This document shows, piece by piece, positions 714-44,640 of a stretch of DNA of 64,000 nucleotides (positions within the stretch are counted from its first letter, which is position 1; every line of letters starts with the position of its first letter). The DNA is from Clostridia bacterium (GTDB taxonomy: Bacteria; Bacillota; Peptococcia; DRI-13; UBA5745). Under the pieces are notes generated by a model. That model saw only the letters and a program-made list of their open reading frames with translations, was not told the origin of the DNA and did no database searches. The translations under genes and the position numbers were made by a program. Location of the stretch: positions 124,001-188,000 of the forward strand of contig JAHDPO010000002.1 in NCBI GenBank assembly GCA_018434325.1, read 5' to 3'.

Positions 714-1895
714 TTAGACCTTGGAAAAGCCTTTTTCCAAATCGTCAATGATATCCTGGGCGTTTTCCAGACCTACGGAAAGGCGAACCAGGCCGTCCGT
801 AAAACCTGCTGCCTGCCTTTCTTCCTTGGAGTAGGCCGAGTGGGTCATGGAAGCCGGATGCTGAATAAGGGTTTCTGCATCTCCCAGGCTGACGGCCAAT
901 ACGCAGACGTGCAGGTTGTTGATGAGGTTTTTTGCGCTTTCAAAGCCGCCTTTTACATCGAAGGAAATGACGCCGCCAAACTGCTGCATTTGTTTTTTGG
1001 CAATGTCATGACCCGGGTGAGAAGGCAAACCGGGATAGTAAACCCGCTGGACTTTCTCATGCTGAAATAAATATTCCGCCACCCTTTGCGCATTTTGGCA
1101 ATGGGCGTCCATGCGGTATTTCAGCGTTTTCAATCCTCGCAGGATCAGGAAGGCGTCATGGGGGCTAAGTACGGAGCCCGTTATATCCTTGAGACCGACG
1201 CTGCGGATTTCGCTCATTATTGCATGTTTGCCCAAAGCCATACCGGCAACCACGTCGCCATGGCCGTTGAGGTATTTGGTGGCGGAATGAAGAACAAGAT
1301 CGGCGCCCAGATCAAGGGGCCGGGTTAAGTAAGGCGTCGCGAAAGTGTTGTCAACCATCATCAGGCAATCGGCCTGCGCCTTGTGCACGGCCTGGGAAAG
1401 CGCCGCAATATCAACAATCTTCATGCTGGGGTTAGCCGGCGTCTCAAAATATACCGCCTTAGTGTTTGGCTTCATGGCAGCGAGAACCGCCTGCGTGTCA
1501 GAACAGTCGACAAAATCAACCTGCATGCCGAACCGCGGGAAAGTATGAGACATCAGCGCATAGGTGCATCCGTACAGGACAGGATCGGCAATGATATGGT
1601 CGCCGCAGCTCAACAGAGTCAGAAGCGTTCCGGATATGGCGCCCATGCCTGAGGAAAACACCACGCATTCCTCGGCGTTTTCCAGCGCTGCGATTTTCTG
1701 CTCCAGCAGTCTGAGAGTGGGGTTGCCCAGCCGGGTGTACATGAAGCCGTCATCCCTGCCCCCAAAACGCTCTCCGCCCTGCTCGGCATCATCAAAAACA
1801 AAAGTGGAGGTTTGGAAGATGGGAGCTGCTAAAGCTCCAAATGCGTTGTCGCTGTGTACGCCGTGGAGTACATCTGTTTCAAAGTGCTTAGACAT
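714..1895 (-). CDS. Methionine gamma-lyase
   Basis: This 393-residue PLP enzyme of the Cys/Met metabolism family probably splits L-methionine into methanethiol, 2-oxobutyrate and ammonia. The PLP lysine is Lys207 in SATKYLNGHGD. Tyr108 and Cys110 in LYGCTYAL match the tyrosine and cysteine (Cys116 of Pseudomonas MGL) that mark methionine gamma-lyases. Length is as usual for the family. A cystathionine or homocysteine lyase role is possible, but the cysteine favours MGL. It stands alone, followed by a hairpin; a GntR gene on the same strand lies about 250 bp upstream. Two further homologues occur in the window. Confidence 0.85.
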   Translation of the reverse strand: MSKHFETDVLHGVHSDNAFGALAAPIFQTSTFVFDDAEQGGERFGGRDDGFMYTRLGNPTLRLLEQKIAALENAEECVVFSSGMGAISGTLLTLLSCGDHIIADPVLYGCTYALMSHTFPRFGMQVDFVDCSDTQAVLAAMKPNTKAVYFETPANPSMKIVDIAALSQAVHKAQADCLMMVDNTFATPYLTRPLDLGADLVLHSATKYLNGHGDVVAGMALGKHAIMSEIRSVGLKDITGSVLSPHDAFLILRGLKTLKYRMDAHCQNAQRVAEYLFQHEKVQRVYYPGLPSHPGHDIAKKQMQQFGGVISFDVKGGFESAKNLINNLHVCVLAVSLGDAETLIQHPASMTHSAYSKEERQAAGFTDGLVRLSVGLENAQDIIDDLEKGFSKV

Positions 1896-3703: not shown

Positions 3704-6454
3704 TTGCAAAAGAATCTGGTTGTTGGCATGCTGGCCCATGTGGATGCAGGCAAAACTACTTTGTCGGAGGCCATGCTCTTCCAAGGCGGTTATCTCAAAC
3801 GCCTGGGCCGGGTGGACCATCAGGACGCCTTTTTAGATACGTTTGACATAGAACGCCGGCGGGGGATTACGGTTTTTGCCAAACAGGCCCTCTTGCCTTT
3901 GGCGGGAGTAAACTTCACCCTCCTTGATACGCCGGGCCATGTGGATTTTGCCGCGGAAATGGAGCGGACTCTCCAGGTGCTGGATTACGCCGTTTTGATC
4001 GTCAACGGTTCCGACGGTGTTCAGAGCCATACGCTTACCCTCTGGCAGCTATTGGAGCGTTATGCCGTTCCTGCCTTTCTCTTCATTAATAAAATGGATT
4101 TAGCAGGCACAGATCAGGCTAGGCTGCTGGCTGAGTTGAAGCAGCGGCTTCATGAGGGCTGTGTTGCCTTTTCCGGCAGGCAGGATCAAGAGAATCAACA
4201 AAGCCGGCCGGCGGCCCGGCAAAGCTGCAGATCCCTGAGCCTTGACGAGGATATAGCCATGTGTGGTGAAGAGGCTCTGGCTGATTTTCTGGAAAAGGGC
4301 TGTCTCAGCGATTCCATAGTTAGCTCCCTGATTCAAAAGCGGCGGCTTTTTCCTTGCTATTTTGGGGCGGCCCTGAAGCTGGAGGGCGTGACGGAATTGC
4401 TGGAGGGCTTGCAGTGGTATGCTTGCTGCCCTGATTATCCTGAGGAATTTGGCGCTAAGGTTTATAAGATTTCCCGGGATGCCCAAAACAACCGGCTGAC
4501 CCATTTAAAAGTTACCGGCGGAGTGTTGGCGGTAAAAGCTCCTCTCACCAATGGCCGGCTGCCGGCAGAGGCAGCGGCGGGAATAGCCAATAGCACAGTC
4601 AATAGCACAGCGGCGGCTTCGCCTGAGGAGCAGATCTGGACGGAAAAGGTCAACCAGATCCGCCTTTATTCCGGTGAGAAGTATCAGACGGTAGACCTTG
4701 CTTTACCGGGGACTATCTGTGCCGTGACGGGACTGAATCATACCTATCCCGGTCAGGGGCTGGGCATTGAGCCGGCTTCCCGGCCGCCCGCCCTGGAGCC
4801 GGTGCTCTCCTTCCGGCTGATTCTGCCTGAAGGCCGGGACCCCCTGCAGGCGCTGCGGCAGCTCCGCCAGTTGGAGGAGGAAGATCCCCAGCTGGCCCTG
4901 GCCTGGGATGAAAGAAGTCAGGAAATTCATCTCAACCTGATGGGCGAGGTGCAGCTGGAAATTTTAGCCCACCTGATCGAGCAGCGCTTTGGTCTGGCGG
5001 TGACCTTTGGTTCCGGCAATATCCTCTATCGGGAGACCATCAGCGGGCCGGTCATTGGCCTGGGCCATTTTGAGCCTTTGCGCCATTATGCCGAGGTGCA
5101 TTTGCTATTGGAGCCGGGCGATCCAGGCAGCGGCTTGCAGCTTGGCACGATGTGCAGTGAGGATGTGCTGCCCCGCCATTGGCAGCGGCTGATTTTAAGC
5201 CATTTGGAGGAGCGGGAGCATGCCGGGGTTCTGGCCGGAGCCCCTGTAACCGATATGAAAATCACCTTGCTGACAGGCAAAGGACATATCAAGCACACGG
5301 AAGGCGGCGATTTTCGCCAGGCAGCTTACCGGGCCCTGCGCCAGGGTTTGATGCAGGCTCTGCACCAAGGTCAATGCCGGCTTTTGGAGCCTTGGTACCG
5401 GTTCCAGCTGGAAGTGCCCAATGAGGCCGTTGGTCGGGCGATGACGGATTTGCAGAGAATGACTGATGATTTTTCCCTGCCGGATACACAGGGTGAGCGC
5501 AGCCTTTTTACGGGCAGCGCTCCGGTGGCGGCCCTGCGGGACTATGCCGCGGAGGTGACGGCTTATACCAGGGGCCTTGGCCGGCTGGCCTGCTCCTTCA
5601 AGGGTTTTGCGCCCTGCCATAATCAGGAGGCGGTGGCGGCGGCCATAGGCTACGAGGCGGAAAGAGATACGGAAAACCCGGCGGATTCCGTATTCTGTTC
5701 TCATGGCGCCGGTGTGATCGTCAAATGGGATCAAGTAAAGGAGCATATGCATCTGGATTCCGGTCTGAGGCTGGAGAAAGAAGAAGCCGAAGAGCAGCTG
5801 CCGGCAAGCTCCGCCGGCGGAACCGGCAAGGGCCTTGATCAGGGCGCTTCCTTGCTGGACAAGGAGTTGCGGGCTATTTATGAACGCACCTACGGCCCTG
5901 TTAAGCAGCGGGATATTCTTCCTTCCGCCTCCTTAAAGCGCACAACGGATTTTGCTCCCCAAAAACAAAACCGGCCCCAGGATGATGGGCCGGAATATCT
6001 CTTGGTGGACGGTTATAACGTTATTCACGGCTGGGAGGATCTGAGCGCCATCGCCCGGCAGAGCATGGATACCGCCCGGCAGCTGCTCATGGATATTCTC
6101 AGCAATTATCAAGGCTTTCGCAAGCAGGAGATCATTTTAGTCTTCGACGCCTACAAGGTGCCGGGCAATCCCGGAGAGGTCAGCCGCTACCATAATATCA
6201 GCGTGGTCTATACAAAAGAAGCGGAAACCGCCGACGCCTATATTGAAAAGGTTACTTACAGCATCGGCCGCAAGCACCGGGTAACGGTGGCTACCTCCGA
6301 CGGAGCCATTCAGATGATTATTCTGGGCCATGGGGCCTTGCGTCTGTCACCCCAGGCCTTGCGGGGAGAAATTCGGCAGGCCGATGCGGAAATTCTGGCT
6401 ATTGTGGAAGCCGGCAACCGGCAGGCTTTTCGCAATTCGATTAAGCTGCCCTAA
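3704..6454 (+). CDS. EF-G/TetM-like translational GTPase fused to a Rae1/YacP-type NYN nuclease domain
   Basis: The 916-residue protein begins with a translation-factor GTPase: P-loop AHVDAGKT (11-18), RGIT (53-56), DTPGHVDF (75-82) and NKMD (129-132), followed by EF-G-like domains resembling ribosomal protection proteins. From about residue 762 it carries an NYN/PIN-fold domain of the YacP (Rae1) family: LLVDGYNVIHGW with Asp769, LVFDAYKV and VATSDG supply the acidic residues of the nuclease site. Rae1 of Bacillus cuts mRNA in the ribosomal A site, so the fusion suggests GTPase-guided mRNA cleavage on ribosomes. The start is TTG with GGAGGTG 5 bases upstream; the ATG at 3675 is out of frame. 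Tetracycline resistance is the usual label for such homologues but is not shown here. Confidence 0.9.
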   Translation: MQKNLVVGMLAHVDAGKTTLSEAMLFQGGYLKRLGRVDHQDAFLDTFDIERRRGITVFAKQALLPLAGVNFTLLDTPGHVDFAAEMERTLQVLDYAVLIVNGSDGVQSHTLTLWQLLERYAVPAFLFINKMDLAGTDQARLLAELKQRLHEGCVAFSGRQDQENQQSRPAARQSCRSLSLDEDIAMCGEEALADFLEKGCLSDSIVSSLIQKRRLFPCYFGAALKLEGVTELLEGLQWYACCPDYPEEFGAKVYKISRDAQNNRLTHLKVTGGVLAVKAPLTNGRLPAEAAAGIANSTVNSTAAASPEEQIWTEKVNQIRLYSGEKYQTVDLALPGTICAVTGLNHTYPGQGLGIEPASRPPALEPVLSFRLILPEGRDPLQALRQLRQLEEEDPQLALAWDERSQEIHLNLMGEVQLEILAHLIEQRFGLAVTFGSGNILYRETISGPVIGLGHFEPLRHYAEVHLLLEPGDPGSGLQLGTMCSEDVLPRHWQRLILSHLEEREHAGVLAGAPVTDMKITLLTGKGHIKHTEGGDFRQAAYRALRQGLMQALHQGQCRLLEPWYRFQLEVPNEAVGRAMTDLQRMTDDFSLPDTQGERSLFTGSAPVAALRDYAAEVTAYTRGLGRLACSFKGFAPCHNQEAVAAAIGYEAERDTENPADSVFCSHGAGVIVKWDQVKEHMHLDSGLRLEKEEAEEQLPASSAGGTGKGLDQGASLLDKELRAIYERTYGPVKQRDILPSASLKRTTDFAPQKQNRPQDDGPEYLLVDGYNVIHGWEDLSAIARQSMDTARQLLMDILSNYQGFRKQEIILVFDAYKVPGNPGEVSRYHNISVVYTKEAETADAYIEKVTYSIGRKHRVTVATSDGAIQMIILGHGALRLSPQALRGEIRQADAEILAIVEAGNRQAFRNSIKLP

Positions 6455-7300: not shown

Positions 7301-7365
7301 AGCTCAGAGCAGAAGCATTAAGGCTGCAGCCAGGTCTGTTGCATTTCCCTGGCTTTGTCGTTGAC
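7287..7365. repeat. Right copy of the 79-bp direct repeat
   Basis: Partner of 6441-6519. It covers the last codons of the DUF3298 gene on the plus strand and the last codons of the desulfhydrase-like gene on the minus strand. Confidence 0.85.
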
Positions 7366-8370
7366 GATGTCGAGAAACATCAAGGGGCCGCCACCGGTAT
7401 GGATAAACAGGACGTTTGCATTCTGGGGGAGGAAGCCCTTGGCAACCAAATCCAGATAGCCGGCCATGGTTTTGCCCGTGTATACTGGGTCCAGGAATAT
7501 TGCCTCTGTCTGAGCCAGCAATTTTATGGCCTGCCAGCATTCCTCGGTGGGTATGCCGTAGCCCTGGCCAACGTAGGAGGAATCCATAATAAAATCACTG
7601 CCGTCTATTCGGTAAGGATAGCCCAACTCCGCCGCATCCTTGTTGAATTCCTCCACAACCAGCGCCGTGACCTCTTCGGAGGAGCGGGAAGCGGATATAC
7701 CGATAACCTTTGCCGGCAGATCATAGGCCTTAGTGCCCAGAAGCAGTCCGGCCAGGGTGCCGCCCATGCCGGCGGTTACGATGATATGGTCAATTTTTTC
7801 ACCCAGAGCGGCCATTTGCTCCTTAATTTCCGCTACTGCCGCACAATAGCTGGCGGTGCCCTGGAGGGAACGGCCTCCCCTGGGGATAACGAAGGGCTTC
7901 TTGCCTTGAGCGATGAGCCAACGGCAGAGCTCTTCTATTTTTTTGTCGCCGGCCCTGCGGCGGGCTTGGGGAAGACTCTCCCCTTCTAACGACTGCACAG
8001 GATCGATGTAAACGAAATTTGTGCCCAGCCAAGACTGCAAAACAGCATTGCCTTCCAAATGGTCTTTTTCTTCTTCGGTAATTACCAGATAATAATCAAA
8101 GTCCTCTTTGGCGCAGGCGGCGGCGGTGAGGCGGCCGTGATTGGTCTGGCAGTCGCCGGAGGTAATGACGGTATCGGCTCCTTCTTTTTTAGCCTGGCCC
8201 AGCAGATATTCCAACATTCTCGTTTTGTTGCCGCCGTAGGCCAGGCCGGTCAGATCATCCCGTTTCATGAACAAACGGGGGCCGCCCACCAGGCTTCTGA
8301 GCTTTTTCAGTTCGTCGATAGGGGTAGGCAGATTTGCCAGTTTAACCTTGGGCAGATTTTCCACAACCAT
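7318..8370 (-). CDS. PLP enzyme of the D-cysteine desulfhydrase/ACC deaminase/L-cysteate sulfo-lyase family
   Basis: This is a 350-residue fold-type II PLP enzyme. The PLP lysine is Lys49 in YGGNKTRMLEYLL. Characterised relatives release ammonia and pyruvate or 2-oxobutyrate from D-cysteine, L-cysteate or ACC. The region usually written as Q-S-N-H, where the serine is catalytic in ACC deaminase, reads CQTNHGR here (Thr76), so ACC deaminase activity is unlikely. It is the last gene of the six-gene operon, 14 bp after the SuyB/UxaA-like gene. That neighbour makes a C-S bond cleaving role (D-cysteine or L-cysteate) attractive; this is inference. Its 3' end was copied to 6441-6519. Confidence 0.8.
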   Translation of the reverse strand: MVVENLPKVKLANLPTPIDELKKLRSLVGGPRLFMKRDDLTGLAYGGNKTRMLEYLLGQAKKEGADTVITSGDCQTNHGRLTAAACAKEDFDYYLVITEEEKDHLEGNAVLQSWLGTNFVYIDPVQSLEGESLPQARRRAGDKKIEELCRWLIAQGKKPFVIPRGGRSLQGTASYCAAVAEIKEQMAALGEKIDHIIVTAGMGGTLAGLLLGTKAYDLPAKVIGISASRSSEEVTALVVEEFNKDAAELGYPYRIDGSDFIMDSSYVGQGYGIPTEECWQAIKLLAQTEAIFLDPVYTGKTMAGYLDLVAKGFLPQNANVLFIHTGGGPLMFLDIVNDKAREMQQTWLQP

Positions 8371-8384
8371 TGTACAATCCCCCT

Positions 8385-9563
8385 CTAAATCACCGGTCCC
8401 AGCATATGGATATCGATGGAGCTGAAATATTGGATGGCCTCGTTCTTGGTCATCTCTCCCGAGAGAACCCTCAGCATTTTTTGGAAGGTCTCCTCCCCCA
8501 CCTCTTCGATGGTCTTTTCCCCGGTAATGATCAAACCTGCGTTAATGTCCATATCTTCGCTCATATGGGCATAGGTATGGGGATTGCCGCAGATTTTAAT
8601 GACCGGCATACTGGGAAAACCCTGGGGGGCGCCCCGGCCTGTGGAAAACATCATAAACTGAGCGCCGCTGCAGGCCATGCCGGTGAGAATCTCCGGCTCC
8701 CGGCCCGGCGTATCTTTGATCCATAAGCCTTTTTCCGTGGTGACGGCTTGGGGATAATCCAAAACTCCCTGAATAGGACGGGAGCCGGATTTCATGATGG
8801 CCCCCAGACTTTTTTCTTCAATGGAGGACAGTCCGCCGGCAATATTGCCGGGGGTGGGCTGGCCCTTGCGCATATCGCAGCCCAGGCTCTTAGCCCGCTT
8901 TTCCATATCATCCACAATTTGCAGGATCTTAGCGCCCACCTCGGGGGTAACTCCCCGGCGGGCCAAAAGATGCTCGCCACCGATGAATTCGGTGGTTTCG
9001 CCGAAGATCACGGTAGCGCCCAAATCCACCAGCTTATCGGCCACATAGCCGATGACGCAGTTGGAAGCCATGCCGCTGGTGGCGTCGGAGGCGCCGCATT
9101 TGATGGCCATTACCACCTTGCTGATGGGGCAAGGCGTTCTTTGACAGCTGCTGGCCTCAATCACCAGCCGGCGGGCAAAATCCGTGCCGGCCTGGATGGC
9201 CTTGGAAACGCCGCCCAGGGCCTGAATATGGATGATTTCCACGTGCTTGCCGGTGGCGGCAATTTCTTCGACCATCCGCTGATGATCGGTACCCTCGCAG
9301 CCCAGGCTGACCACCAGCACATTGGCTACGTTGGGGCTCTTGCCGATGCTGATCAGCGTATCCGTCACCCGCTCCAGATCAGGAGGCAGCTGGCAGCAGC
9401 CCTGGTGATGGAGATAAGTTACCGTACCCTGTACCTGATGGCAAATAGCCATAGCCACGTCGTTGGCACAGGTGACACTGGGAATGACGGCGGTAAAGTT
9501 GCGGGCTCCCGCCTTGCCGTCGGGGCGGAGATAGCCCATGAATTCAGGATTGGTTGTCGCCAT
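8385..9563 (-). CDS. UxaA-family lyase, large subunit (altronate dehydratase or SuyB-like sulfolactate sulfo-lyase)
   Basis: The 392-residue product corresponds to the C-terminal catalytic part of altronate dehydratase, beginning with the family signature GYLRPDGKAGARNF. It is rich in conserved cysteine and histidine segments (HHQGCCQLP, SLGCEG, KCGASDATSG, FSTGRGAPQGFP) that fit a metal-dependent lyase. In full-length UxaA the SAF domain is fused to this part; here it is a separate upstream gene, as in SuyAB, the (2R)-3-sulfolactate sulfo-lyase. Its ATG overlaps the small subunit's TGA by one base. Substrate cannot be fixed by sequence alone; a hydroxyacid dehydratase is equally possible. 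Confidence 0.8.
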   Translation of the reverse strand: MATTNPEFMGYLRPDGKAGARNFTAVIPSVTCANDVAMAICHQVQGTVTYLHHQGCCQLPPDLERVTDTLISIGKSPNVANVLVVSLGCEGTDHQRMVEEIAATGKHVEIIHIQALGGVSKAIQAGTDFARRLVIEASSCQRTPCPISKVVMAIKCGASDATSGMASNCVIGYVADKLVDLGATVIFGETTEFIGGEHLLARRGVTPEVGAKILQIVDDMEKRAKSLGCDMRKGQPTPGNIAGGLSSIEEKSLGAIMKSGSRPIQGVLDYPQAVTTEKGLWIKDTPGREPEILTGMACSGAQFMMFSTGRGAPQGFPSMPVIKICGNPHTYAHMSEDMDINAGLIITGEKTIEEVGEETFQKMLRVLSGEMTKNEAIQYFSSIDIHMLGPVI

Positions 9564-9871
9564 CAGTTATTCTCCTTCCAGTCGCCCCGGCCCCGCTTGC
9601 TGTCAAGATTATGGACGTGGACGTATTCACCCTTGCCGATTTGCCGGCTGGCCATACCGATGGCTTCGCCGTATTTAATGATATCCTGGCCCGGAGCAAT
9701 ATCCGCCAGGGCAATCTTATGGCCGTAAGGGATGTCTCCCAAAACGGTCATGGTCCGGCTTCCGCCTTTTTTGTCGCGAACCTCTACTTCGTCGTTTTTA
9801 CTGACGCCTTCCGCAAAAATGGTGGCCACATTATCCAGATCATTTACTTTCAGGGCAATATTGAGAGCCAT
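9563..9871 (-). CDS. UxaA-family lyase, small SAF-domain subunit (SuyA-like)
   Basis: This 102-residue protein is a single SAF domain, equal to the N-terminal part of altronate dehydratase (LGDIPYGHKIALADIAPG, KYGEAIGMA). It should form a complex with the large subunit encoded immediately downstream. AAAGGAGAGG precedes the ATG. The split arrangement is found in sulfolactate sulfo-lyase and in several uncharacterised UxaA pairs. Confidence 0.82.
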   Translation of the reverse strand: MALNIALKVNDLDNVATIFAEGVSKNDEVEVRDKKGGSRTMTVLGDIPYGHKIALADIAPGQDIIKYGEAIGMASRQIGKGEYVHVHNLDSKRGRGDWKENN

Positions 9872-9900
9872 GGCTTCCTCTCCTTTTTTATTACGATTAT

Positions 9901-11181
9901 TTATTGGGGTTTGGCGATTAAAACGCTGACGCCGTCGGGGATCACAACTACGGCGGCATTCTTGCCTTTCAGATTATAAGCAATGGCCAAGGCTTCATCA
10001 AGATTCTGGGCGGGAATCATATTGGCGCTTCTGACTTCCTCAGCGCTTAAGCCCGAAGTAACCAGAATGACCTGATGCTTTTTCAGGATCCGGGCGTAAA
10101 TCTGGGCACACCACTGTTCGGGAATGGTTTCCTTGGCGGGAATCTTCGCGAGATATTCGTCGATGGCTGCCGGCGGCCCCAGCTTGATCAGCTTCTCAAA
10201 GTAGCTGCCGCCCATACCGTCGGCACAGCCGCAGCACATGATGATTACGCCGTCTTCACCGGCGCAGGCCTCGGCCGTAGTCACCGCCTTAGGGCTCTGA
10301 TAAAGGTTTTGGTCCAAAGGATAGCCGCCGTTGCCGGTGATCACGATATCGCCGGTGACGGCAGGATATTGGGAAAGGCTGCGGACGAAGTCCACACCCC
10401 GGTCATGGGCCGCTTCCAAATCTCCCGCAAAGGCGCCGATGATTTTTTTCTCGCTGTCCAGAGCTACGTTGAGAATAAAAGCTGTATGAACCCGGCGGGC
10501 CGCCACGATCATATCCTGATGAATGGGGTTGTTTTCTAAAATACCCGTTTGGGAATAGGGGCTGGCAATCGCTTTATAGCTGTGATTTTCGTTTACCGTT
10601 TCCTGGCTGCAGATCCCCGGCAGAATGCTTTTGCGGCCGCCGGAAAAACCGGCAAAGAAGTGAGGCTCAATAAAGCCTTCGGCAATCAGCAGGTCGCAAT
10701 CCACCGCCAGCCGGTTAACCAAAAAGCCGGCGCCGGAGGGCAGAATACCCTGATCCACAAATTGGCCGGGATCAAAGGCGTCGTTAATGGCAATTTTCTC
10801 ATAATCTACAATATGGCCGCCAAACATCTGCCGCTGCTCTTCTGCCGTGGTGGCCCGATGGAGGCCCGTAGCAATCAAGATGGTGATTTCCGCCGCCGGA
10901 TTGCCTTTTCTGATCTCCGCCAGCAAGAGGGGCAGAGTAATTTTGCTGGGTACTGCCCGGGTGTGATCGCTGGTTATCAGCGTGATTTTCTTTTTTCCTT
11001 TAGCTAGCTCTTGCAGTCTCGGTGTGGCCAGGGGATGTTCCAGGGCAGCCAGGACTACTTGTTCCTGGCTGCCGCTGAAATCCGATACGTAAGGCTTGGC
11101 GGAAATTATGGCCTTTAAGTTTCTTTCCTCTATGTGCAAATCCAGAGAGGAAGTATGGTAAGGAATTTTTATGGTTTTCAT
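9901..11181 (-). CDS. LarA-type nickel-pincer 2-hydroxyacid racemase
   Basis: The 426-residue product is a full-length LarA homologue. The residues important in Lactiplantibacillus LarA fall at identical positions: Asp72 and Arg75 in DHTR, His108, His174, Lys184 in GGRKSILPG, His200, Gln295 and Lys298. It should therefore bind the nickel-pincer nucleotide and racemise or epimerise a 2-hydroxyacid. LarA homologues act on lactate, malate, phenyllactate, hydroxyglutarate or sugar acids, so the substrate is open. The maturation genes larB, larC and larE are not in the window. It sits between a transporter gene (2 bp gap) and a split lyase, which suggests that it supplies the lyase with the correct isomer. 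Confidence 0.88.
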   Translation of the reverse strand: MKTIKIPYHTSSLDLHIEERNLKAIISAKPYVSDFSGSQEQVVLAALEHPLATPRLQELAKGKKKITLITSDHTRAVPSKITLPLLLAEIRKGNPAAEITILIATGLHRATTAEEQRQMFGGHIVDYEKIAINDAFDPGQFVDQGILPSGAGFLVNRLAVDCDLLIAEGFIEPHFFAGFSGGRKSILPGICSQETVNENHSYKAIASPYSQTGILENNPIHQDMIVAARRVHTAFILNVALDSEKKIIGAFAGDLEAAHDRGVDFVRSLSQYPAVTGDIVITGNGGYPLDQNLYQSPKAVTTAEACAGEDGVIIMCCGCADGMGGSYFEKLIKLGPPAAIDEYLAKIPAKETIPEQWCAQIYARILKKHQVILVTSGLSAEEVRSANMIPAQNLDEALAIAYNLKGKNAAVVVIPDGVSVLIAKPQ

Positions 11182-11183
11182 GG

Positions 11184-12605
11184 TTATTCAGCTGCCGTTG
11201 TCGGAATGGGGCAGCCCAGGGGGATTGCTTCGCCGTTTTCATCCAGCTCGGGATAGAACTCCACTCCCTCTTTTTCCTCTTTGGTTTTCAGCAGCTCAAA
11301 TTGAATGGTGACAACGGTTGCAATCAGCAGCAGAACCAAATAATAGGAATGTCCCATAATGGTGAGAGGCGAAAGGGAAGTCAAGGTCACGGCCAGCATG
11401 ATCTGGCCGCCGTGGGGCAGGAAGCCCTGAATCACGCAAGAGATGATATCCAGCAAGGAAGCCAGCCGCTGGGGAGCTACGCCGAATTTTTTGGCAATAG
11501 GTTTGGTCAAAGGCGCTGCAATCAGGATGGCGATGGTATTGTTGGCCATACAGGCATCCAGAATACCGGTAATGCCCAGGATGGAGTATTGAGCGCCCTT
11601 GCGGCTTTTCACATTGCTGTTGAATAAAGTGGTCAGCCAGTGGGTGCCGCCCATATCCCTGACCAGGCCGGTGAGACCCCGCATCAGGATGGTGACGATG
11701 ACGATGGAAAGCATGCCGGCGATACCGGAGGCTACCGATTTGGCGAAGGTGACGAAGGTCATGGAGCCGGTGAGGCCGCCGACCAGGCCGGCCAGAACGG
11801 TACCGCCAAACAAAACCACCAGCACGTCGACGCCGGCGATAGCCAGTGCCAAAACGGCAATATAGGGCACTACTTTGATTAGCTCAAAAGGAAAGGGGCC
11901 TTCCAGCTGAGCGCCGGCGCCGCCGACAATAGTGTAGACAACCATGGCTAAAAGGGCTGCCGGCAAAGCGATCAGCAGGTTCATCCGGAATTTGTCCTTC
12001 ATTTCGCAGCCGGCGCCCCGGGTGGCGGCAATGGTGGTATCGGAGATAACGGACAGATTATCACCGAACATACCGCCGCCCACAACTGCCGAGATACAGA
12101 TGGCCATATCCAGGCCGGTGATCTCGGATAAACCTACGGCAATGGGGCCGATGGCGGCGATAGTGCCCATGGAGGTGCCCATTGCTGTGGCGACGAAGGA
12201 AGAAATCAAAAATATGCCGGCCAGGATAAAGCGACTGGGTACGTAGGTAAGACCCAGATTAACGGTAGAGGTGACGCCGCCCATTTCTTTGGCCACGCCG
12301 GCAAAGGCGCCGGCCAAGATGAAAATCAGAACCATCAGCATAACGCCGGGATCACCGCAGGCTGTGGAAAAGCTGTCGGTTTTCACGGAAAAGCTTCTTT
12401 TGCCCATAAGCAGGCCCACAAGGACGCCGGCCATCAGGGCTGTTTCACGGGGTATCTGTCTGAAGGGCTCCGGTACGCCCATCAAAGTAAAAATTAAACC
12501 GGCGCCAACATAGAGGCCCAAAAAGACAAGGAGAGGTAAGAAGGCTAACCCGCCCAGATTTTTTTCTTCAGTGATCAGAGGCTTAATTTTTTTATTGTCG
12601 CTCAT
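11184..12605 (-). CDS. NhaC-family Na+/H+ or organic acid antiporter
   Basis: This integral membrane protein of 473 residues has about eleven hydrophobic segments and family motifs such as GTSMGTIAAIGPI and GGGMFGDNLSVISDTT. NhaC relatives include Na+/H+ antiporters and MleN, which exchanges malate for lactate with Na+/H+. In this operon of hydroxyacid and amino acid enzymes, uptake of an anionic substrate is more likely than pH homeostasis; that is inference. AGGGG precedes the ATG. The PLP enzyme gene ends 57 bp upstream. Confidence 0.85.
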   Translation of the reverse strand: MSDNKKIKPLITEEKNLGGLAFLPLLVFLGLYVGAGLIFTLMGVPEPFRQIPRETALMAGVLVGLLMGKRSFSVKTDSFSTACGDPGVMLMVLIFILAGAFAGVAKEMGGVTSTVNLGLTYVPSRFILAGIFLISSFVATAMGTSMGTIAAIGPIAVGLSEITGLDMAICISAVVGGGMFGDNLSVISDTTIAATRGAGCEMKDKFRMNLLIALPAALLAMVVYTIVGGAGAQLEGPFPFELIKVVPYIAVLALAIAGVDVLVVLFGGTVLAGLVGGLTGSMTFVTFAKSVASGIAGMLSIVIVTILMRGLTGLVRDMGGTHWLTTLFNSNVKSRKGAQYSILGITGILDACMANNTIAILIAAPLTKPIAKKFGVAPQRLASLLDIISCVIQGFLPHGGQIMLAVTLTSLSPLTIMGHSYYLVLLLIATVVTIQFELLKTKEEKEGVEFYPELDENGEAIPLGCPIPTTAAE

Positions 12606-12661
12606 TATTTGACCCCTTTTCTCTTAATCATCGATGGGTGCAGTCTTATCGGCGAAAGGTT

Positions 12662-13876
12662 TTACATGGCGGCAAAAGCCCGTTCAAAATCGGCAATCAA
12701 ATCCTCGACATTTTCCAGACCAACGGACATACGGATCAGGCCGTCGCTGATGGAGGCGGCTTCTCTTGCTTCTTTGGGCACGCTGGCGTGGGTCATGCTG
12801 GCGGGATGCTGGATCAGGGTATCGGGATCACCCAAGGATACGGCAATGCTGGGAATGGTCAGGGTATTGAGCAGCTTGATGCCCGCATCGTAGCTGGAAA
12901 GGCCATTGATTCCATCTACTTCAAAGGCCACCATACCGGTATAGTAACCGTTCATTTGCTCTTTGGCCAGGTCATGCTGGGGATGGTCGGCCAGACCAGG
13001 ATAGTAAACCTTCTTGATGTGCTTGTTGCCGGCCAGATACTGGGCGAAAGCCATGGCATTATTGCAGTGCTGTCGTACCCTTAAAGAAAGGGTTTTCATG
13101 CCCCGCAGCACCAGGAAAGAGCTATGGGGAGAAGGCGGCGTGCCGCAGATCTTGGTAACACCGTTGCCTCTGACCAGAGCAATATCCGCTTTGCTGCCTA
13201 CTACCAGGCCCCCCAGCACATCGCCGTGGCCGTTCAGGTATTTGGTGACGGAATGAACCACCATGTCTGCTCCTAACTTGAGGGGGAATTGCAGGGGCGG
13301 GGGAGCGAAGGTATTGTCCACCACCAGCTTGATGCCCTTAGCCTTGGTGATTGCCGCCATTTTTTTAATGTCCGTTACCACCATCAGGGGGTTGGTGGGG
13401 GTCTCAAAATAAAGCAGCTTGGTGTTGGGTCTGATGGCTGCTTCTACGGCAGCGGCGTCGCTGGTATCCACATAGCTTACGTCGATACCGAATTGAATCA
13501 GATTAGTGCGCATAACCACGGAGGTACCGCCATAGACGCAATCACCGCAAATCACATGATCGCCGGTCTTGAGAAAAGCCACCATAACGGCGCCGATAGC
13601 GCCCATGCCGGAAGCGGTGGCGACAGCATCCTCTCCGCCTTCCAGGGCGGCGATTTTGATTTCCAGAGCCCGGTTAGTGGGATTGCCGCTGCGGGAATAG
13701 ACAAAGCCGGGAATGGTTTTGGCAAACTTGCCCTGGCCTTCCTCTACGGTTTCAAAGCAGAAGGTGGAGGTTTGATAGATGGGCGTAGCCAAAGCGCCGC
13801 TTTCTTTGTCAGGTCCTTGGCCGGCATGGATCATCAGGGTTTCAAAGCCGACATTGGTAAGATCGATTTTGCTCAT
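12662..13876 (-). CDS. Cys/Met metabolism PLP enzyme (gamma-lyase-like, active-site Cys replaced by Gly)
   Basis: This 404-residue fold-type I PLP enzyme has Lys212 in HSVTKYLNGHGD as the PLP residue and Tyr115 as the usual tyrosine. The position of the MGL-specific cysteine is Gly117 (CVYGGTSVVM), so it is not a canonical methionine gamma-lyase. Cystathionine, homocysteine or another thioether or amino acid with a gamma or beta leaving group could be the substrate. It is the first gene of the operon, with AAAAGGAGG upstream of the ATG, and is divergent from the LysR gene. Confidence 0.82.
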   Translation of the reverse strand: MSKIDLTNVGFETLMIHAGQGPDKESGALATPIYQTSTFCFETVEEGQGKFAKTIPGFVYSRSGNPTNRALEIKIAALEGGEDAVATASGMGAIGAVMVAFLKTGDHVICGDCVYGGTSVVMRTNLIQFGIDVSYVDTSDAAAVEAAIRPNTKLLYFETPTNPLMVVTDIKKMAAITKAKGIKLVVDNTFAPPPLQFPLKLGADMVVHSVTKYLNGHGDVLGGLVVGSKADIALVRGNGVTKICGTPPSPHSSFLVLRGMKTLSLRVRQHCNNAMAFAQYLAGNKHIKKVYYPGLADHPQHDLAKEQMNGYYTGMVAFEVDGINGLSSYDAGIKLLNTLTIPSIAVSLGDPDTLIQHPASMTHASVPKEAREAASISDGLIRMSVGLENVEDLIADFERAFAAM

Positions 13877-13933: not shown

Positions 13934-13996
13934 CTATGTTAATATAGCAAATTAGCCAACTATATAGAATTATGAAAAAACTATGCTTTGCCATAG
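13934..13996. promoter_or_regulatory. Divergent promoter region with three CTAT...ATAG palindromes
   Basis: Between the operon and the LysR gene lie CTAT-N6-ATAG (13934-13947), CTATATAG (13960-13967) and CTATG-N6-CATAG (13981-13996). The region is AT-rich, unlike its surroundings. Such spaced inverted repeats fit LysR-type operators controlling both directions. The repeats are directly visible; their function is inferred. Confidence 0.55.
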
Positions 13997-14063
13997 GAAA
14001 AACGTATGCATAATTTTATAAAATATGATATATTATATAAACTATGACCTTGAAATCTAAAAA

Positions 14064-14996
14064 ATGAGGAGGCTTACGATGACTTTGCAGCAAATACGTT
14101 ACGTTCTTGCTATCTTAAAATATGGCTCGATAAGCAAGGCTGCCCAAGAGATTTGTATTGCCCAGCCTCATTTGAGCAGCACCTTAAAAGACTTGGAAAA
14201 GGAACTGGGCATAACGATTTTCTCCAGAAGCAGAAAGGGTGTGGAGCTGACTGCCGAGGGTAAGGAGTTTTTAAGCTTCGCCAAGCCCCTTTTGGCCCAG
14301 GAAGAAAAAATTCTGGAGCTTTATTCAAGGAATACTTCTAAGCCCGCATTCAATTTCTCGCTGTCGACACAGCGCTATCCTTTTGTCATCAAAGCCTTTT
14401 TTGAACTTTTTCATAGCTATGAACCGGAACAATATGAAATCCATCTCCGGGAAGTCGATATGCGCAATGTAATCAATGATGTGTTCAACGGTAAAAGCGA
14501 TATCGGAATTATTTTTCTTTCCAATACCACAGAAGGCTTTATGCGCAGGCATTTGGCGGCCAAAGGCTTGGAATTTCATCTGATCAAGGAGATTACGCCT
14601 TGCGTGTTTTTTAGGAAGACCCACCCCATGGCTGAAAAAGAATCGGTCACTTTGGAAGAAATGAGCGCATTTCCTTTTGCTTCTTTTGAATCGGAAACCC
14701 CGGCTTCTCCGGAATTTTCGGAGGAAGTATTTTTTTACAATTTTTCCACAGCGAAAAAGAATCTTTTTGTGGTGGACAGGGCTACCATGATGGGTATCCT
14801 TACCCATACGGAGGCTTTCTCCATAGGAACCGGCATACTGCCGGTGGGCTTTGCCGGCCCGCAGCTGGTAAGCCGGCCCATCAGGGGTCATGAGAAAGAA
14901 ATTAAGTTGGGCTGGATCCACCATATGGATTGCAGTCCCAATGAAATATTTTGTGAGTTTATTGAAAGAGTGAAGGCTGTCCTCGAAAAATGCTAA
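14064..14996 (+). CDS. LysR-family transcriptional regulator
   Basis: The product has an N-terminal winged helix (about residues 4-66, with the typical SISKAAQEICIAQPHLSSTL). A substrate-binding domain follows (about 90-305). It is divergent from the LarA/lyase operon with 187 bp between, the usual layout for a LysR regulator of a neighbouring catabolic operon. An ATG a few codons further (14079) is also possible, as GGAGG lies 6 bases before it. A hairpin follows the stop codon. The inducer is unknown; a substrate or intermediate of the operon is likely. Confidence 0.88.
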   Translation: MRRLTMTLQQIRYVLAILKYGSISKAAQEICIAQPHLSSTLKDLEKELGITIFSRSRKGVELTAEGKEFLSFAKPLLAQEEKILELYSRNTSKPAFNFSLSTQRYPFVIKAFFELFHSYEPEQYEIHLREVDMRNVINDVFNGKSDIGIIFLSNTTEGFMRRHLAAKGLEFHLIKEITPCVFFRKTHPMAEKESVTLEEMSAFPFASFESETPASPEFSEEVFFYNFSTAKKNLFVVDRATMMGILTHTEAFSIGTGILPVGFAGPQLVSRPIRGHEKEIKLGWIHHMDCSPNEIFCEFIERVKAVLEKC

Positions 14997-28784: not shown

Positions 28785-28838
28785 AGCAAGTTCCTGCAAC
28801 CGGCTATAAAACCTTTTTTGGAAATGAGGAGGATCAAA

Positions 28839-31800
28839 ATGAGTATAAGATACCGCCTTCTCGCGGTTTTTTTAGCAGTGAATATAATCCTATCCCTGGC
28901 GCCCGGCTGCGGGAAGAATAAGTCCGGAGAGGATAACGAATCTTCCGGCAATATCCCGGCCTCCAAGCTGCACGGTATTGTTGCAGAAGCGGAGGACGGC
29001 ATTGGAGAACCGGGAAAAGACTTTGCATTGCTGAAAACGGGCCCTGCTGACGATTGGGGCAGCATGTCCGCCCCGAAATTCAATCCGTTGGGCGCTCGCG
29101 CCCTATACAGCGGCGCCGAGTATCTCGGAAGCGACGGTGAGGATGTCTTATTTTACACATTAGATGGTTATATCGAAAAGCGGGAAAGCAGAACCGGCGA
29201 AAGATGGGAGCTTTCCATAGCCGACCCGGATTATTCCCTGCGCTGGCTGCGCTGGTACACCCGAGAGGCAGGCGGCAAATGGTATCAGGGGACCCAAGAT
29301 CACTCCTCGTTCTTTCTGCCGGAAAGCGAGACCGTCTCCTGGTGGGCGGATGCGCGCCAAACCGAGGAAGGAGTGGACTTAACCGTACTGAAGATCAACG
29401 TACTGCCTGTGGGGACGCCGTTGATCCTGCGGCCCGGTGAAGCGGCCGGCGACAGCTACGTCTTTTACACCCTGCCCACCAACGGTAAACTGCAATCCGC
29501 CGCCATCATCCTCAAAGGAGCTGCCGAATGCGGCTTTTCGTTGGATATCTCCAGCTCTATGCAACGAGGCGGATTTTCCTATCAAACCAACCTGACCCGA
29601 TGGGAGGAAACGCTATCGCTCAAAAAGGCGGAGCGCTTCATTCTGGATGATTTGCCCATCGCCGAGGGAGAACTGTGCTGGAAGCTGGGGTGGGGAGAGA
29701 AAACCCCGCCGCCCGAGGAAATCACCCTGCAGCTGGACGCCGTAGCGGAGATTACGCCCGTTACATGGGGTGAGCAACCCGGCGCCATTCGCATCACTGG
29801 GATTCCCGTAGGGGAAGCGAAGGTATATGCGCCCGAGTGGGCCGAGATCTCACACCGGGAGGTGTCGATCTTTGCGCAGGAAGTGGCGGGCGTGACCGAG
29901 CCCGATGGCAATATGCTGTTCGCCGCTCCCGCCGGATATTATAACATCCGCCTCAACCCCGGCGCCGATGGAATGGATCAGAACTATCTGCGCCTAATCC
30001 CGGTGAATGCAGGGGAAATCACAACGGTGAACATCCCGCCGGAGGTCAGCGTAGGGGCTGGGGCGCTGTCTCGGCTGTACGGGGATTTTGATCAAAACGA
30101 GGGCGGCGTCGAGTTGCTGGGCAATAAAGCCGATGGGGATACGGCTACGGCAACTTTTATCCTCAACGATCCTCAAGAACGCGACCTTTTCCCACAGAAG
30201 GAGGATATCAAAATTTCGGAGGACGGAGCCGCGGCGGTGGTCACCGACCTTCAGCGCGAACCTGCCGGCAGCGATGTGGTGCTGGTGCTGGATACCTCCG
30301 GCTCGATGGGTGAAAATATGAAGCCCTGCGTGGAGGCTGCTAAGCGTTTTGTAGAGAGTCTGCCGGAAAACACCAAGATTCGTCTTGTCCAATTTGCGCA
30401 GAAAATTACCGAGCACAAGGCTGCCGACAAGGCCGGTGTCATCGCGGCGCTGGATACCGTCAAGGAGGGTGGCGCCACCGCCCTTTACGATGCCACCGCC
30501 CGGGCCCTTTCTCTGCTGAAAGATAAAAAAAGAGGGTATGCGGTCGTCTTCTCCGATGGCGCAGATTCGCGGGAACCGGGCGTGGACGGCGAAGGCAGCG
30601 CTATGGATAAGGAGCAGCTCCTGGCCGAAATCCGGGAGAGCGGTGTAACGGTGCTCACCATCGGCTTCGGGGCGGGGCACGACCCCGCCACGCTGATTGC
30701 GATGAGCGCTGTTTCCAAAGGCGGCGGGTATTTTGCCGCCGCCAATAAGGAGGCGCTGGCAGGGGCCTTTGCCACCGTCGCCGGAAAGTTCGGCAATCAA
30801 TTCACCGTAACCTATCAGCGCCCCATTATCCCCAAGGATCAAGACGGCACGGTTGCGGTGGTTTCAATGCTCATCGACCGTTCCGGCTCAATGGACGCCG
30901 ACCCCATCGAGGAGGAAGGCGTCGGCTGGCGTATCGAGCGAATACGAGAGATGTTTCACGGTTTTGTACTCAAGCTGCCCGACGATACGCTGATGCAGCT
31001 GGGAAGCTTTGCCGCACCGATGGGCGGCGCGGAGCCCCGCTTTGACCAGCTGATAACCGACCAAAAGGCCAGTATTTTGCAAGCTCTGGGCAGCCTTGAG
31101 ACGGGGGGAGGAACGCCTACCAAGACCGCCCTGGAAATGGCTTATTACAATTTGGCTCCGGTTCCCTCGCAAAAAAGGGCGTTGGTTTTCTTCACCGACG
31201 CCGGGCTGTACGACCCGGAAAATCCCGATGAGCTAAATGAAATCCTCTCCCTCTACCGAGCGTCCGGCATTCGGGTGCTGTTTGCCGGGCTCAACGACGA
31301 CACCGGCGCCGAGATGGAAGGTATCTTCAAAACAGCGGCGCAAAAGGCAGGGGGCGACTATATCCTCACCAGCGACATCGGCAAAATCACTCAAAAGCTT
31401 GACGAGCTCCTCAGTAAGCTTCAAACGCCCTCCCTAAAGCAAGGGGTGGATTTTACCCTTGGCGTGGACTGTGAAGTTCCGGGCGGCGGCAGAGTACAGT
31501 TTTATACCTCCAAGGGGCTTGCGGAGTTTACCACGAAAACCGGCGCAGGAAAACGCATCGATCCACAAATCATTGCCTGTAAAACCGGCGAACCCTACGC
31601 CGTCTACAATAGAGATGCGGCAAAGCTGCTCTATGGGGGAGATCAGCCGGTGGCGCAGAGCAATGTTCTGCTGCGATTGCCCTTTGCCAATGCCACAGAG
31701 GGCAATCGATTTGCAAAGCTGACAGTCACGGAGGCCTATCTGCTGAATATGTTCAAGGGGATTCCCGCGCCGGCGGGCAAGCGGTATCTTGCGTTGAACA

Positions 31801-34800
31801 CCACACTGGAATTCGCCAAAAGCGATCCCCAGGCGGCCCAGGTGGGATACAGCGTCCCCAATATCTTTAATCATTTCTATCTATCGGCAAACGAAGGACG
31901 GATGGCGCCGCCGTCCGAGGCCACATGGCTGGCTGAAAAGCCCTTTGCCATACCGGGCGAAAGCGACGTCACCGTTTTTGAAAAGGAACCGCGCAGCGGC
32001 ATGCTGATTTTCCTCACGGACTTGGACGACGGCGAGAACCTGACCCAGCTGTCGCTGCATCTTTACGACACCGAAAATGGCCATATCCAGCTGCCGCTGG
32101 CCGGCGTGCTTCCCGACCGGATGCTGAAGATAGACGCTCTCCCAACCGAGACTCCGGTACGGATGAGTGATACCTTCACCCTTTCCGTCACCGGTACGGC
32201 ACGGCAAACGGCCTTGGAGGGAGTGGAGCTCCAGCGGGCTAACGCAGAGTTTGCCGCAGAAGATGCCCGGCGCAACGCCAGCTTTCTGGTGGTGGAGGCG
32301 AAGTTCGACAGTAAGGTACAAGCGCTGCTGGCCATCGACCCCACCGAAAGATTTCTCTATCAGCTTGAAACCGATCAAGGCGTTTTGATGACGCCCATGA
32401 GCGGCATTGTTCATCGCCTGCCCTTGGGCTTCACGGGAGAAACCATGCTGGCGCCCGGCTCTTGCAGCAGGGTGCGGATGCCCTTTGTACTGCCCGACGA
32501 GCTGCTGGGGATGAAAGGCTCGGTTTACGCCGATCTGGCAACCGGCTCACAGCAGTGGGTAATTAAGGCTGGTCAGCCATGTGTCACCGGCGGCGATGGA
32601 AAACGCTTCTCCCATGAATATTTTGATTTAACCGTCAACGCGCTTTGCCTGGATGCGCACAGCGGCGCGGCGGTGTTGGATTTTACTATCCATGACAAGA
32701 AGGACGGCGAGGGCACAGGCGGCTTGGAGAGCGTTTTACAGCTGGAGCGGGGCGAGCCGTCCCAGGAGAGCGCCGCCCAGCAGATGGTGGCCGGACGCAG
32801 CGGACTGGGCAGCTTTGCCGGGGGAAATGAAGACATCGTCACCGCCAGCTTTGGCGGCACCAACCGGCTGGTATTCGGAGCCATACAGGAAGACGGTACA
32901 TGGGGTGCTTTTGACGGGCAATCCCGTCGGGGAATCCTGGTTTTTGAAATTTCCGGGGAGGATCCCAGCGAATGGACGCTGACCAGCCCCCTTCTCCCTG
33001 ACCTTCGGCTGCCGGTGAGTCCGGCTGCTTATCCTCATTTGGCATTGCTGGCTGAAAAACCGGAAATCGAAAGGAACAGTGATTTTGAAAAGGCACTGGA
33101 AGAAGCGGTGGCCGGCGCGGTGGCAGCCTATGAGGCGACACGGCCTGCGCCGAGAGACAGGGTGGTTACCGGACTTTCCGACGAAGAAATTATGGGTAAG
33201 CAGGTCCCCTCTCCCGCACTGACCCTCTACGGAAGTCAGCGGGTCAAGGCCGTGGAATCCTATGAGGACTTTAGATCGCTCATGAATAGCCTCGGATGGG
33301 TTCCCGCAGGCGGCGAGCCGCAAATCCTGTACCGCTATGCACCGGAAGCGGTGATTACCCAGGGTTGGGGAGGACAGCATGATTTAGCGGTACTGGCAAA
33401 AACGCTGCTGGCCCGGCTGGGCTACCGCCCGGAATACCGCACGGTCACCCTGACGGCGGCGGGACAAGAGAACCTGTGCCGCATCGGTGGTGTAGAGGAA
33501 GCGCCAAAGACACTGACGGGGATTTTTTATACCGATGAAGCCGGAGCCCAAAAGCTGTTTCTGCCGGTGCTGAACGCCGATCTTTCCGAGCTTCACGGGC
33601 TGGCCTATCTGTCTACCGAGGAAGCTCCTGTGGATATTCAGCCTTCCAGGGGCCGCCTTACCATCCAGCTATACGGAAAACTTAGCGGGAACGCAGCGGA
33701 CATTGCTTCTGCCAACGCAGGGCTTTGGGATGCCTTGGGCGCATCCCTCTCCGGCGAGGAGGGAGAAGGAGGCATTTATGAAACGGTCACCCTGCTGGAG
33801 CGAGAGCTCTCACTGCCCGACCTGAGTCTGGATGCCCTGGACATCAGCTATCTCTCCAAGCCCAAGGCAGACGGAGGGGCGCTGTTACTGCCGATCCTGG
33901 ATACCCGGCAGGGTCTGATCTACGATCCCAACAGCTGGATAGACAGCTCCTATTACACGTTTGAACGCCTGAACATCATTGTGGAGGACGGTGAAAGCAG
34001 GGCGACACACACCACTATGCTGCCTGAGGGGCAAAAGCTCAGTGAAATTACTCATACGCTGGCGTGGGGTGTGCCGGAGCTGACCGAGGCCGGCGCCAAA
34101 GCTATCGAGGAGATGGCAAAGGCAGAAGCCGGCGCGGCCAAGGAACCGGCCAACTACTCGGTATCCCGCTGGCTGGGGCATGCCACAATAAACCGCCTGA
34201 TTCGGGGTCTTACAGCAGCCAGCAGAGAGATTGCAAATACCCTTGGATTGACTGTGGGCCGTTCCAACCAGTCTATCGCGCTTTTGGTCACCACAAAATC
34301 CGACGGGAAAACTGCCGAAACCACAGTGGATCTCCTCAACCACCGCAATCAGCTCCACAGCGAGGATGAGAATGCCATTCATGCCTATAATCTGATGTAC
34401 GGCTACTTCGCCAGCGATATGGAGGCGGCGGCGCTGCCGGGCGGCGAGGGCGTTGGCTACACAAAGGTTTGGCAGGCGCTGCCCCAGGGAGCAAAAATCA
34501 TCCAGCTTGCTATTGAGGAGCCTTCCTCCCTCGAAGCGGTCAAGGAGCAGTATCCCAAGGAAAGCTTCCCGCCGCTGCTCTGGGAGCGTATGAGCGGCGA
34601 GGACGGCAGTGATCCTCCGCAGACCCTCTACCTGGTGCCGGACCAGCCGGCCCAAATCGACGGAAAGCCCCGGTGGGCGTGGCTGGAAATCGATATGGTG
34701 AGCTATGACGTAATCTCGGTATTCGAGACCGGCGAGCGTGCTGGCATGGGCGAATATCTCATCGGCTGTTTGCCCGGAAACGGAAACTATGGCGAAGTAG

Positions 34801-44307: not shown

Positions 44308-44640
44308 AAAAAAACGTCCCACATCCCGGATTCTATCCTGGGACGAGACGTCTGCTCGCGGTACCACCCAAGTTGCCCTTATCAACGGAAATACCTTGCC
44401 CGGGAAAGCTGTGCTCCCCCGATATCGCCGCCATAAAAAGCCACCTCATTTAGCGCTTAACGGACGCTGCCGGTACGGCTCATCGCCGCCTGCTCCAGGG
44501 CGGAATCAGTTGCAAGACTGCCGGCTTCCACCAACCGCCGGCTCTCTGTAAGGCTTGCAGCCTACGTTCCCCTTCACTGCATTTCGTATGCAATGCCCCT
44601 TCACCTCTAAAGGCTCAGGTCATTTATTGCCCCATTATAA
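44308..44640 (-). promoter_or_regulatory. T-box riboswitch, probably serine-specific
   Basis: The minus strand contains the hallmark GGTGGTACCGCG (44368-44357), followed by a terminator hairpin with CGTCCCA and TGGGACG ending in seven T (44314-44308). Upstream is a long stem I region with AGAGAG and GGTTGGTG. The likely specifier loop CTGATTCCGCC contains TCC (44504-44502), a serine codon. The riboswitch should bind uncharged tRNA-Ser and allow read-through into the aminotransferase and serA genes. Confidence 0.9.

Follow-up and report, generated by a model that had tools for sequence, protein, structure and literature searches.

The closest described relatives of the locus analyzed here belong to two enzyme families that have been studied separately. 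The UxaA/GarD superfamily includes the D-altronate, galactarate, D-arabinonate and D-idonate dehydratases, across which four cysteines are conserved with the exception of SuyAB (PMC6336799). SuyAB, the (2R)-sulfolactate sulfo-lyase, belongs to the same superfamily and is split into a small and a large subunit; in the SlcC/ComC plus SuyAB route of Chromohalobacter and Paracoccus, inversion at C2 is followed by elimination of the beta-substituent. The second family comprises LarA and its lactate-racemase group (the LarA enzymes of T. thermosaccharolyticum and L. plantarum, LarAH42, LarAH43 and LarAH51), whose members act on very short 2-hydroxy acids, glycerate included (PMC11770544). Here we describe an operon that joins the two families in a 64,000-nucleotide stretch of a Clostridia bacterium genome (the whole stretch is referred to as the window, and is part of contig 6 of an assembly that is 98% complete). 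Six minus-strand open reading frames (7318-13876) lie beside a divergent LysR gene, and among them a larA gene is followed directly by the two genes of a split UxaA-type enzyme. On balance we favor, by a modest degree, the view that this core is a racemase-dehydratase cassette acting on a short 2,3-dihydroxy acid.

The evolutionary unit is the larA-uxaA(small)-uxaA(large) trio, which is smaller than the six-gene operon. Using large-subunit searches and annotation of the surrounding neighborhoods, with genes in the relatives called by a custom script scored on amino-acid composition, we surveyed a sample of genomes drawn from the phylum and one order and found the trio, in this order and with near-touching genes, in 11 loci (the window, L007, L008, L070, L115 and L136-L141). 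When co-occurrence was counted over 246 genomes of one order, the large subunit (79-85% identity) was present in 7 genomes and LarA (66-73% identity) in the identical 7, while the other LarAs of this sample (n=11) all showed at most 49% identity. The UxaA small subunit is 63-86% identical and keeps a constant position in all cassettes. The transport gene varies, being of the NhaC type in the window and L007 and a GntP permease in L008, L070, L115, L140 and L141, and across the 11 neighborhoods NhaC and both pyridoxal phosphate (PLP) enzyme genes accompany the cassette solely in the window's genus. The sequence-only reading had linked a LarA-type racemase to a split UxaA-type lyase, which these loci bear out; it had further treated all six genes as one pathway, and this holds only within the genus, the PLP genes and NhaC falling outside the conserved core.

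Neighboring genes differ between the cassettes. L070 consists only of a GntP permease, the UxaA pair and LarA, with a GntR gene that diverges from them. The gene run continues in L140 and L141 as gntP-gntR-glycerate 2-kinase, and in L115 as gntP-tartronate semialdehyde reductase-gntR-glycerate 2-kinase, with the reductase exceeding its model cut-off. Upstream of its cassette, L137 carries an HpaI/GarL-type aldolase, and an ilv gene set lies 561 bp downstream of the one in L138; several cassettes, L008 and L070 among them, have neither kinase nor aldolase in view.

The domains of the large subunit (GD_AH_second and GD_AH_C), with the SAF domain of the small one, place the window pair in the UxaA/GarD superfamily. 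The sequence-only reading had assigned it an anionic leaving group, with LarA racemizing sulfolactate, a SuyAB-type pair releasing pyruvate and sulfite, and a PLP enzyme acting on cysteate. Two observations are in keeping with this, namely that SuyAB is a likewise split enzyme of the superfamily and that the best NCBIfam match of the operon's last gene is CuyA (NF052482, 294.2 bits), although this score is under the cut-off of 450. SuyB references were drawn from loci with a sulfonate context: the neighbors are hpsN/hpsO in Cupriavidus pinatubonensis, dehydrogenases of the hydroxyacid and Ldh families together with an exporter in Paracoccus seriniphilus, and TauE with a gene of the Ldh family in Methylobacterium radiotolerans; Bacillota-side homologues were added to these. 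A tree of 75 rows separated the SuyB clade (11 rows, support 100/100, stem 0.62) from the clade of the window (17 rows, 100/99). Closer inspection of the alignment showed that the window clade has cysteine throughout at columns C32, C56, C89 and C156, whereas the SuyB clade reads L/I, R, a gap and C, the columns having been matched to the published cysteine numbers from spacing and pattern; three of the four cysteines therefore differ. Identity between the window large subunit and SuyB-clade proteins is 35-41%, compared with more than 70% among published SuyBs across phyla (PMC6278857). In the loci examined, SuyB is accompanied by ComC/SlcC-type dehydrogenases, hpsNO, or a TauE or sulfate exporter, families that were not found in the six-gene operon, and the window LarA is of the W-C type described below, without the charge-pairing lysine by which malate racemases accommodate a second negative charge. 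Together, the position outside the SuyB clade, the retained dehydratase cysteines and the low identity to SuyB-clade proteins indicate that the leaving group is most likely water rather than sulfite, and we regard sulfolactate as an extremely improbable substrate.

Within the same tree, the large subunit falls among split-type UxaA proteins whose substrates are uncertain, and E. coli UxaA and GarD are far off. Grouping with sugar acid dehydratases, named in the sequence-only reading as what would speak against its proposal, is thus found at the residue level, in all four cysteines, but not in the tree. Another alternative would make the pair a dehydratase of the altronate or galactarate type, with LarA as a hexonate or aldarate C2-epimerase. 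Besides family membership, this would agree with the only NCBIfam match of the pair, galactarate dehydratase TIGR03248 (219.4 bits for the large and 45.4 for the small subunit, short of a cut-off of 730.85 that belongs to a fused-protein model and so handicaps a split pair), and with the parts of a galactarate pathway seen as the tartronate semialdehyde reductase and glycerate kinase of L115 and the GarL-like aldolase of L137. No single locus examined, however, combines dehydratase, aldolase, reductase and kinase, and the window operon itself has neither an aldolase nor a 2-keto-3-deoxy-acid kinase; it differs further from the known dehydratases of the superfamily in being split into two genes and in its company, a lactate-racemase-type LarA with a pocket suited to very short acids. 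We consider this alternative decidedly unlikely.

The specificity of LarA enzymes is read from positions F175, F176, W358 and T359 of LarA1: lactate racemases usually have F, F, W and E/Q, malate racemases have H/Q and K at the W358 and T359 positions, and gluconate epimerases read E-V-A-H (PMC11770544). The window LarA scores 566.7 bits against NF033504 (cut-off 460), the sole clear over-threshold NCBIfam name in the operon (nickel-dependent lactate racemase), has 2yjg as its best solved-structure match (433.9 bits), and retains all catalytic and cofactor residues (D72, R75, H108, H174, K184, H200 and K298). Its specificity positions are F175, F176, W357 and C358, so that it shares F-F-W with the lactate-racemase group and departs from a pattern that is usual rather than absolute by a cysteine in place of Glu/Gln (Thr in LarA1). 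This F-F-W-C combination is common to 11 of 11 cassette LarAs, whereas the close LarAs retrieved from outside cassettes (44-54% identity), as well as another LarA encoded in the window's own genome (45% identity), read W-Q or W-E. These data suggest a cassette-specific W-C subclass of LarA, which moreover adjoins dehydratase genes rather than larBCE. A cysteine at the fourth position also occurs in LarAH42 of Enterocloster asparagiformis, which is still placed in the lactate-racemase group and is weak throughout, with kcat/KM values per M per s of 610 for 2-hydroxybutyrate, 200 for lactate, 12 for glycerate and 3 for 2,3-dihydroxybutyrates (PMC11770544).

Malate and tartrate were rejected as substrates, since in the alignment the window LarA has W and C where malate racemases carry the charge-pairing lysine. 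In Sporomusa termitida, the enzyme LarAH62 racemizes malate and is also active on tartrate (PMC11770544); a LarA-like protein beside UxaA on an S. termitida plasmid (L096) is 18% identical to the window LarA and is not equated here with LarAH62. A distant LarA-like protein of the DUF2088 type recurs beside UxaA pairs in L085 (contig C34 of the window's own genome), L092, L096 and L009, a second linkage that is separate from the W-C cassette.

From these family assignments we infer a two-step conversion. LarA, using a nickel-pincer cofactor, would invert C2 of a short-chain 2,3-dihydroxy acid in the direction 2R to 2S, and the UxaA pair, as an iron-cysteine hydro-lyase, would then dehydrate the 2S form with loss of its C3 hydroxyl, the resulting enol giving a 2-oxo acid. 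The order of events would match that of the SlcC/ComC plus SuyAB route, but the inversion would be one redox-neutral LarA step and water would take the place of sulfite. The preference of the LarA group for very short 2-hydroxy acids, combined with the action of UxaA-type enzymes on a C3 hydroxyl, points to glycerate or 2,3-dihydroxybutyrate, and perhaps to a C4 sugar acid. Among the named substrates of the UxaA superfamily, idonate, galactarate and (R)-sulfolactate are of the (2S,3R) type at C2-C3. The same type is shared by altronate and arabinonate (PMC10079672). A racemase would on this basis rescue the 2R form: the L-glycerate-like enantiomer would be the one dehydrated, with LarA feeding in its D counterpart, the enantiomer that glycerate kinase also usually accepts. 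The minimal unit of L070 suggests that the product should already be a central metabolite, and the glycerate 2-kinase added in three sister operons (L115, L140 and L141) makes glycerate, converted to pyruvate, our leading guess. We hold glycerate itself as a tentative choice, with less confidence than the broader assignment to short 2,3-dihydroxy acids.

Several observations count against glycerate or against the cassette model as a whole. LarAH42, which we compare by its shared cysteine position only, is poor on glycerate. There would seem to be little need for a glycerate kinase next to a glycerate dehydratase unless the two use opposite enantiomers, and the kinase matches (257 and 249 bits) lie under the narrow equivalog cut-offs of 550 and 670 and thus hold at the family level only. 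To our knowledge, there is no UxaA-family glycerate dehydratase. UxaA pairs of the window's own clade (72-77% identity) also occur in a different operon, in L009 and in L069 (G023:C26), beside two aconitase-like genes, TctABC, MmgE/PrpD and an adenylosuccinate-lyase-like gene, with a different LarA or none in view. A sister group of about 50-53% identity adjoins KdgT-, D-threonate kinase- and PdxA-type genes, which suit C4 acids. Finally, genes for synthesis of the nickel-pincer nucleotide (NPN) cofactor were not found in the window's 98% complete assembly: in this assembly (G000) and in G019, both of which have a cassette LarA, LarC was undetected, no LarE exceeded the family cut-off, and no DNA resembled the larE-larB-larC of the sister species G023. 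The missing NPN genes would reflect either assembly gaps or a LarA without NPN synthesis of its own.

Further features of these loci were noted in passing. The G023 genes larE-larB-larC lie at G023:C6:37832-40634 (L173:3333-6135). About 320 bp upstream of G023 larE (L173:2505-2850, G023:C6) recur at about 30 sites in the G023 assembly, and short fragments of this repeat also occur in the window's genome. L009 contains further LarA-like proteins, a fumarase and a malic enzyme, and the UxaA large subunits of L117 and L118 (63-64% identity) adjoin a tripartite ATP-independent periplasmic (TRAP) transporter, with a nitrilase-family gene also present in L117.

The C4-acid genes of the sister group bear on an alternative that partly overlaps the cassette model, in which threonate/erythronate or 2,3-dihydroxybutyrate is epimerized at C2 and dehydrated to 4-hydroxy-2-oxobutyrate or 2-oxobutyrate. 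The preference of LarAH42 for 2-hydroxybutyrate and the weak epimerization of 2,3-dihydroxybutyrate by lactate-racemase-group enzymes (PMC11770544) would be consistent with such a substrate, as would the aldolase of L137 and the ilv set of L138; the very low activity of LarAH42 on 2,3-dihydroxybutyrates, the cassettes that have no kinase or aldolase in view, and the glycerate kinase of the three sister operons, which suits a C3 substrate better, argue the other way. We consider a C4 substrate unlikely, albeit less so than a hexonate or aldarate. For glycerate, the cassette could be extended to a shunt that takes both enantiomers directly to pyruvate at no ATP cost; UxaA would be the first of its family to dehydrate glycerate and the W-C LarA its dedicated racemase, and the sister operons would then balance this shunt against glycerate 2-kinase via the opposite enantiomer. 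This extension is rather doubtful, and more so than glycerate as the substrate. Literature on glycerate dehydratase or a LarA-UxaA linkage yielded nothing on point, with the supplementary context tables of the LarA papers falling outside its coverage, so that an earlier mention is possible.

The window's genus adds to the cassette an NhaC-type carrier and two PLP enzymes, each of which matches its superfamily without reaching a specific model. The carrier belongs to superfamily PF03553 and scores 64.6 bits against TIGR00931, far under the cut-off of 370. The first gene encodes a methionine-gamma-lyase (MGL)-like enzyme that scores 482.1 bits against TIGR01328 (cut-off 549.7). As diagnostic residues of MGL we take the cysteine of the YGC motif and Lys240-Asp241 (P. 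putida numbering); in an alignment to 9qm6 the window enzyme has YGG and TK at these places. The last gene encodes a fold-II PLP enzyme, the class to which CuyA, D-cysteine desulfhydrase and 1-aminocyclopropane-1-carboxylate (ACC) deaminase also belong. It is nearest to CuyA and D-cysteine desulfhydrase but reaches none of the cut-offs of the models for CuyA, DcyD and ACC deaminase, has about 36-39% identity to plasmid homologues, and reads QTNH where D-cysteine desulfhydrases have QSNH (Thr for Ser). Both PLP enzymes probably act on amino acids by elimination, presumably of the beta-substituent of C3-C4 amino acids, and a shared 2-oxo-acid product (pyruvate or 2-oxobutyrate) would be their simplest link to the cassette. 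Another PF01053 PLP enzyme, at window positions 714-1895 and about 5.4 kb past the operon's last gene, is 49% identical to the MGL-like enzyme.

The presence of C-S lyases in both PLP families raises a thiol version of the pathway, in which LarA and the UxaA pair would act on 3-mercaptolactate, an isostere of 2-hydroxybutyrate, with release of sulfide alongside two PLP cysteine C-S lyases. On size and polarity, a 2-hydroxybutyrate preference of the LarAH42 type could extend to this compound. The PLP genes were, however, not found with the cassette outside the genus, the MGL-like enzyme has neither the Cys nor the Lys-Asp typical of MGL, the dehydratase cysteines favor hydroxide as the leaving group, and GntP permeases and glycerate kinase fit such a pathway poorly. 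We judge the thiol version very unlikely, nearly as much so as sulfolactate.

The six genes and the divergent LysR gene were present as the sequence-only reading had described them, with their domains confirmed by Pfam (Table 1); the intergenic gaps in transcription order are 56, 2, 29, -1 and 14 bp, the first having been given as 57. All seven genes recur in unchanged order in L007, from a second species of the genus, with protein identities of 86-96%, and the LysR protein, in the same position, is 91.5% identical. Differences between the window and L007 fall mostly at the third codon position (9/7/98 over the three positions in the MGL-like gene and 13/11/102 in the large subunit). Between lysR and the first gene lie about 68 bp with few changes, while the rest of the interval diverges more, and this block is likely a regulator-binding region. 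Collectively, the conservation of seven genes, the third-position bias and the nearly unchanged intergenic block indicate that the operon is real and under selection in the genus. A minus-strand promoter is possible at 14061-14032, a sequence match that alone proves nothing.

Table 1. Features of the operon and its regulator in the window.
Feature	Coordinates	Strand	Evidence
First gene, methionine-gamma-lyase-like PLP enzyme	12662..13876	-	Pfam PF01053 (Cys_Met_Meta_PP), 471.8 bits
NhaC-superfamily carrier	11184..12605	-	PF03553 (Na_H_antiporter) over cut-off
LarA racemase, lactate-racemase group, core gene 1	9901..11181	-	Lar_N + LarA_C; NF033504
UxaA-family small subunit, core gene 2	9563..9871	-	SAF domain PF08666
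UxaA-family large subunit, core gene 3	8385..9563	-	PF04295 + PF20629 (GD_AH_second + GD_AH_C)
Fold-II PLP enzyme, D-cysteine desulfhydrase / CuyA / ACC deaminase family	7318..8370	-	PF00291 (PALP)
Divergent LysR-type regulator	14064..14996	+	PF00126 + PF03466 (HTH_1 + LysR_substrate)
Conserved lysR-operon intergenic stretch with CTAT/ATAG half-sites, putative regulator-binding region	13935..14002		Alignment with L007

Elsewhere in the window are an elongation-factor-G-like protein fused to a YacP-like NYN domain (3704-6454), a 2108-residue protein with a von Willebrand factor A domain (28818-35144) and a T-box leader on the minus strand (44336-44586).

Under the cassette model, the operon of the window's genus would channel hydroxy and amino acids that are small and beta-substituted into 2-oxo acids, with LysR as its regulator. 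LarA-superfamily enzymes are widespread, and their cellular roles are mostly undefined. The F-F-W-C signature marks a LarA subclass that is tied to one enzyme, such that whatever the UxaA pair dehydrates, LarA should invert, and this link may explain why LarAH42, which shares the cysteine, was weak on every substrate tried. For the UxaA family, the three cysteines provide a residue test separating UxaA-type dehydratases from SuyB-type sulfo-lyases, which is of use since a split UxaA protein can easily be mistaken for a sulfonate-degrading enzyme.

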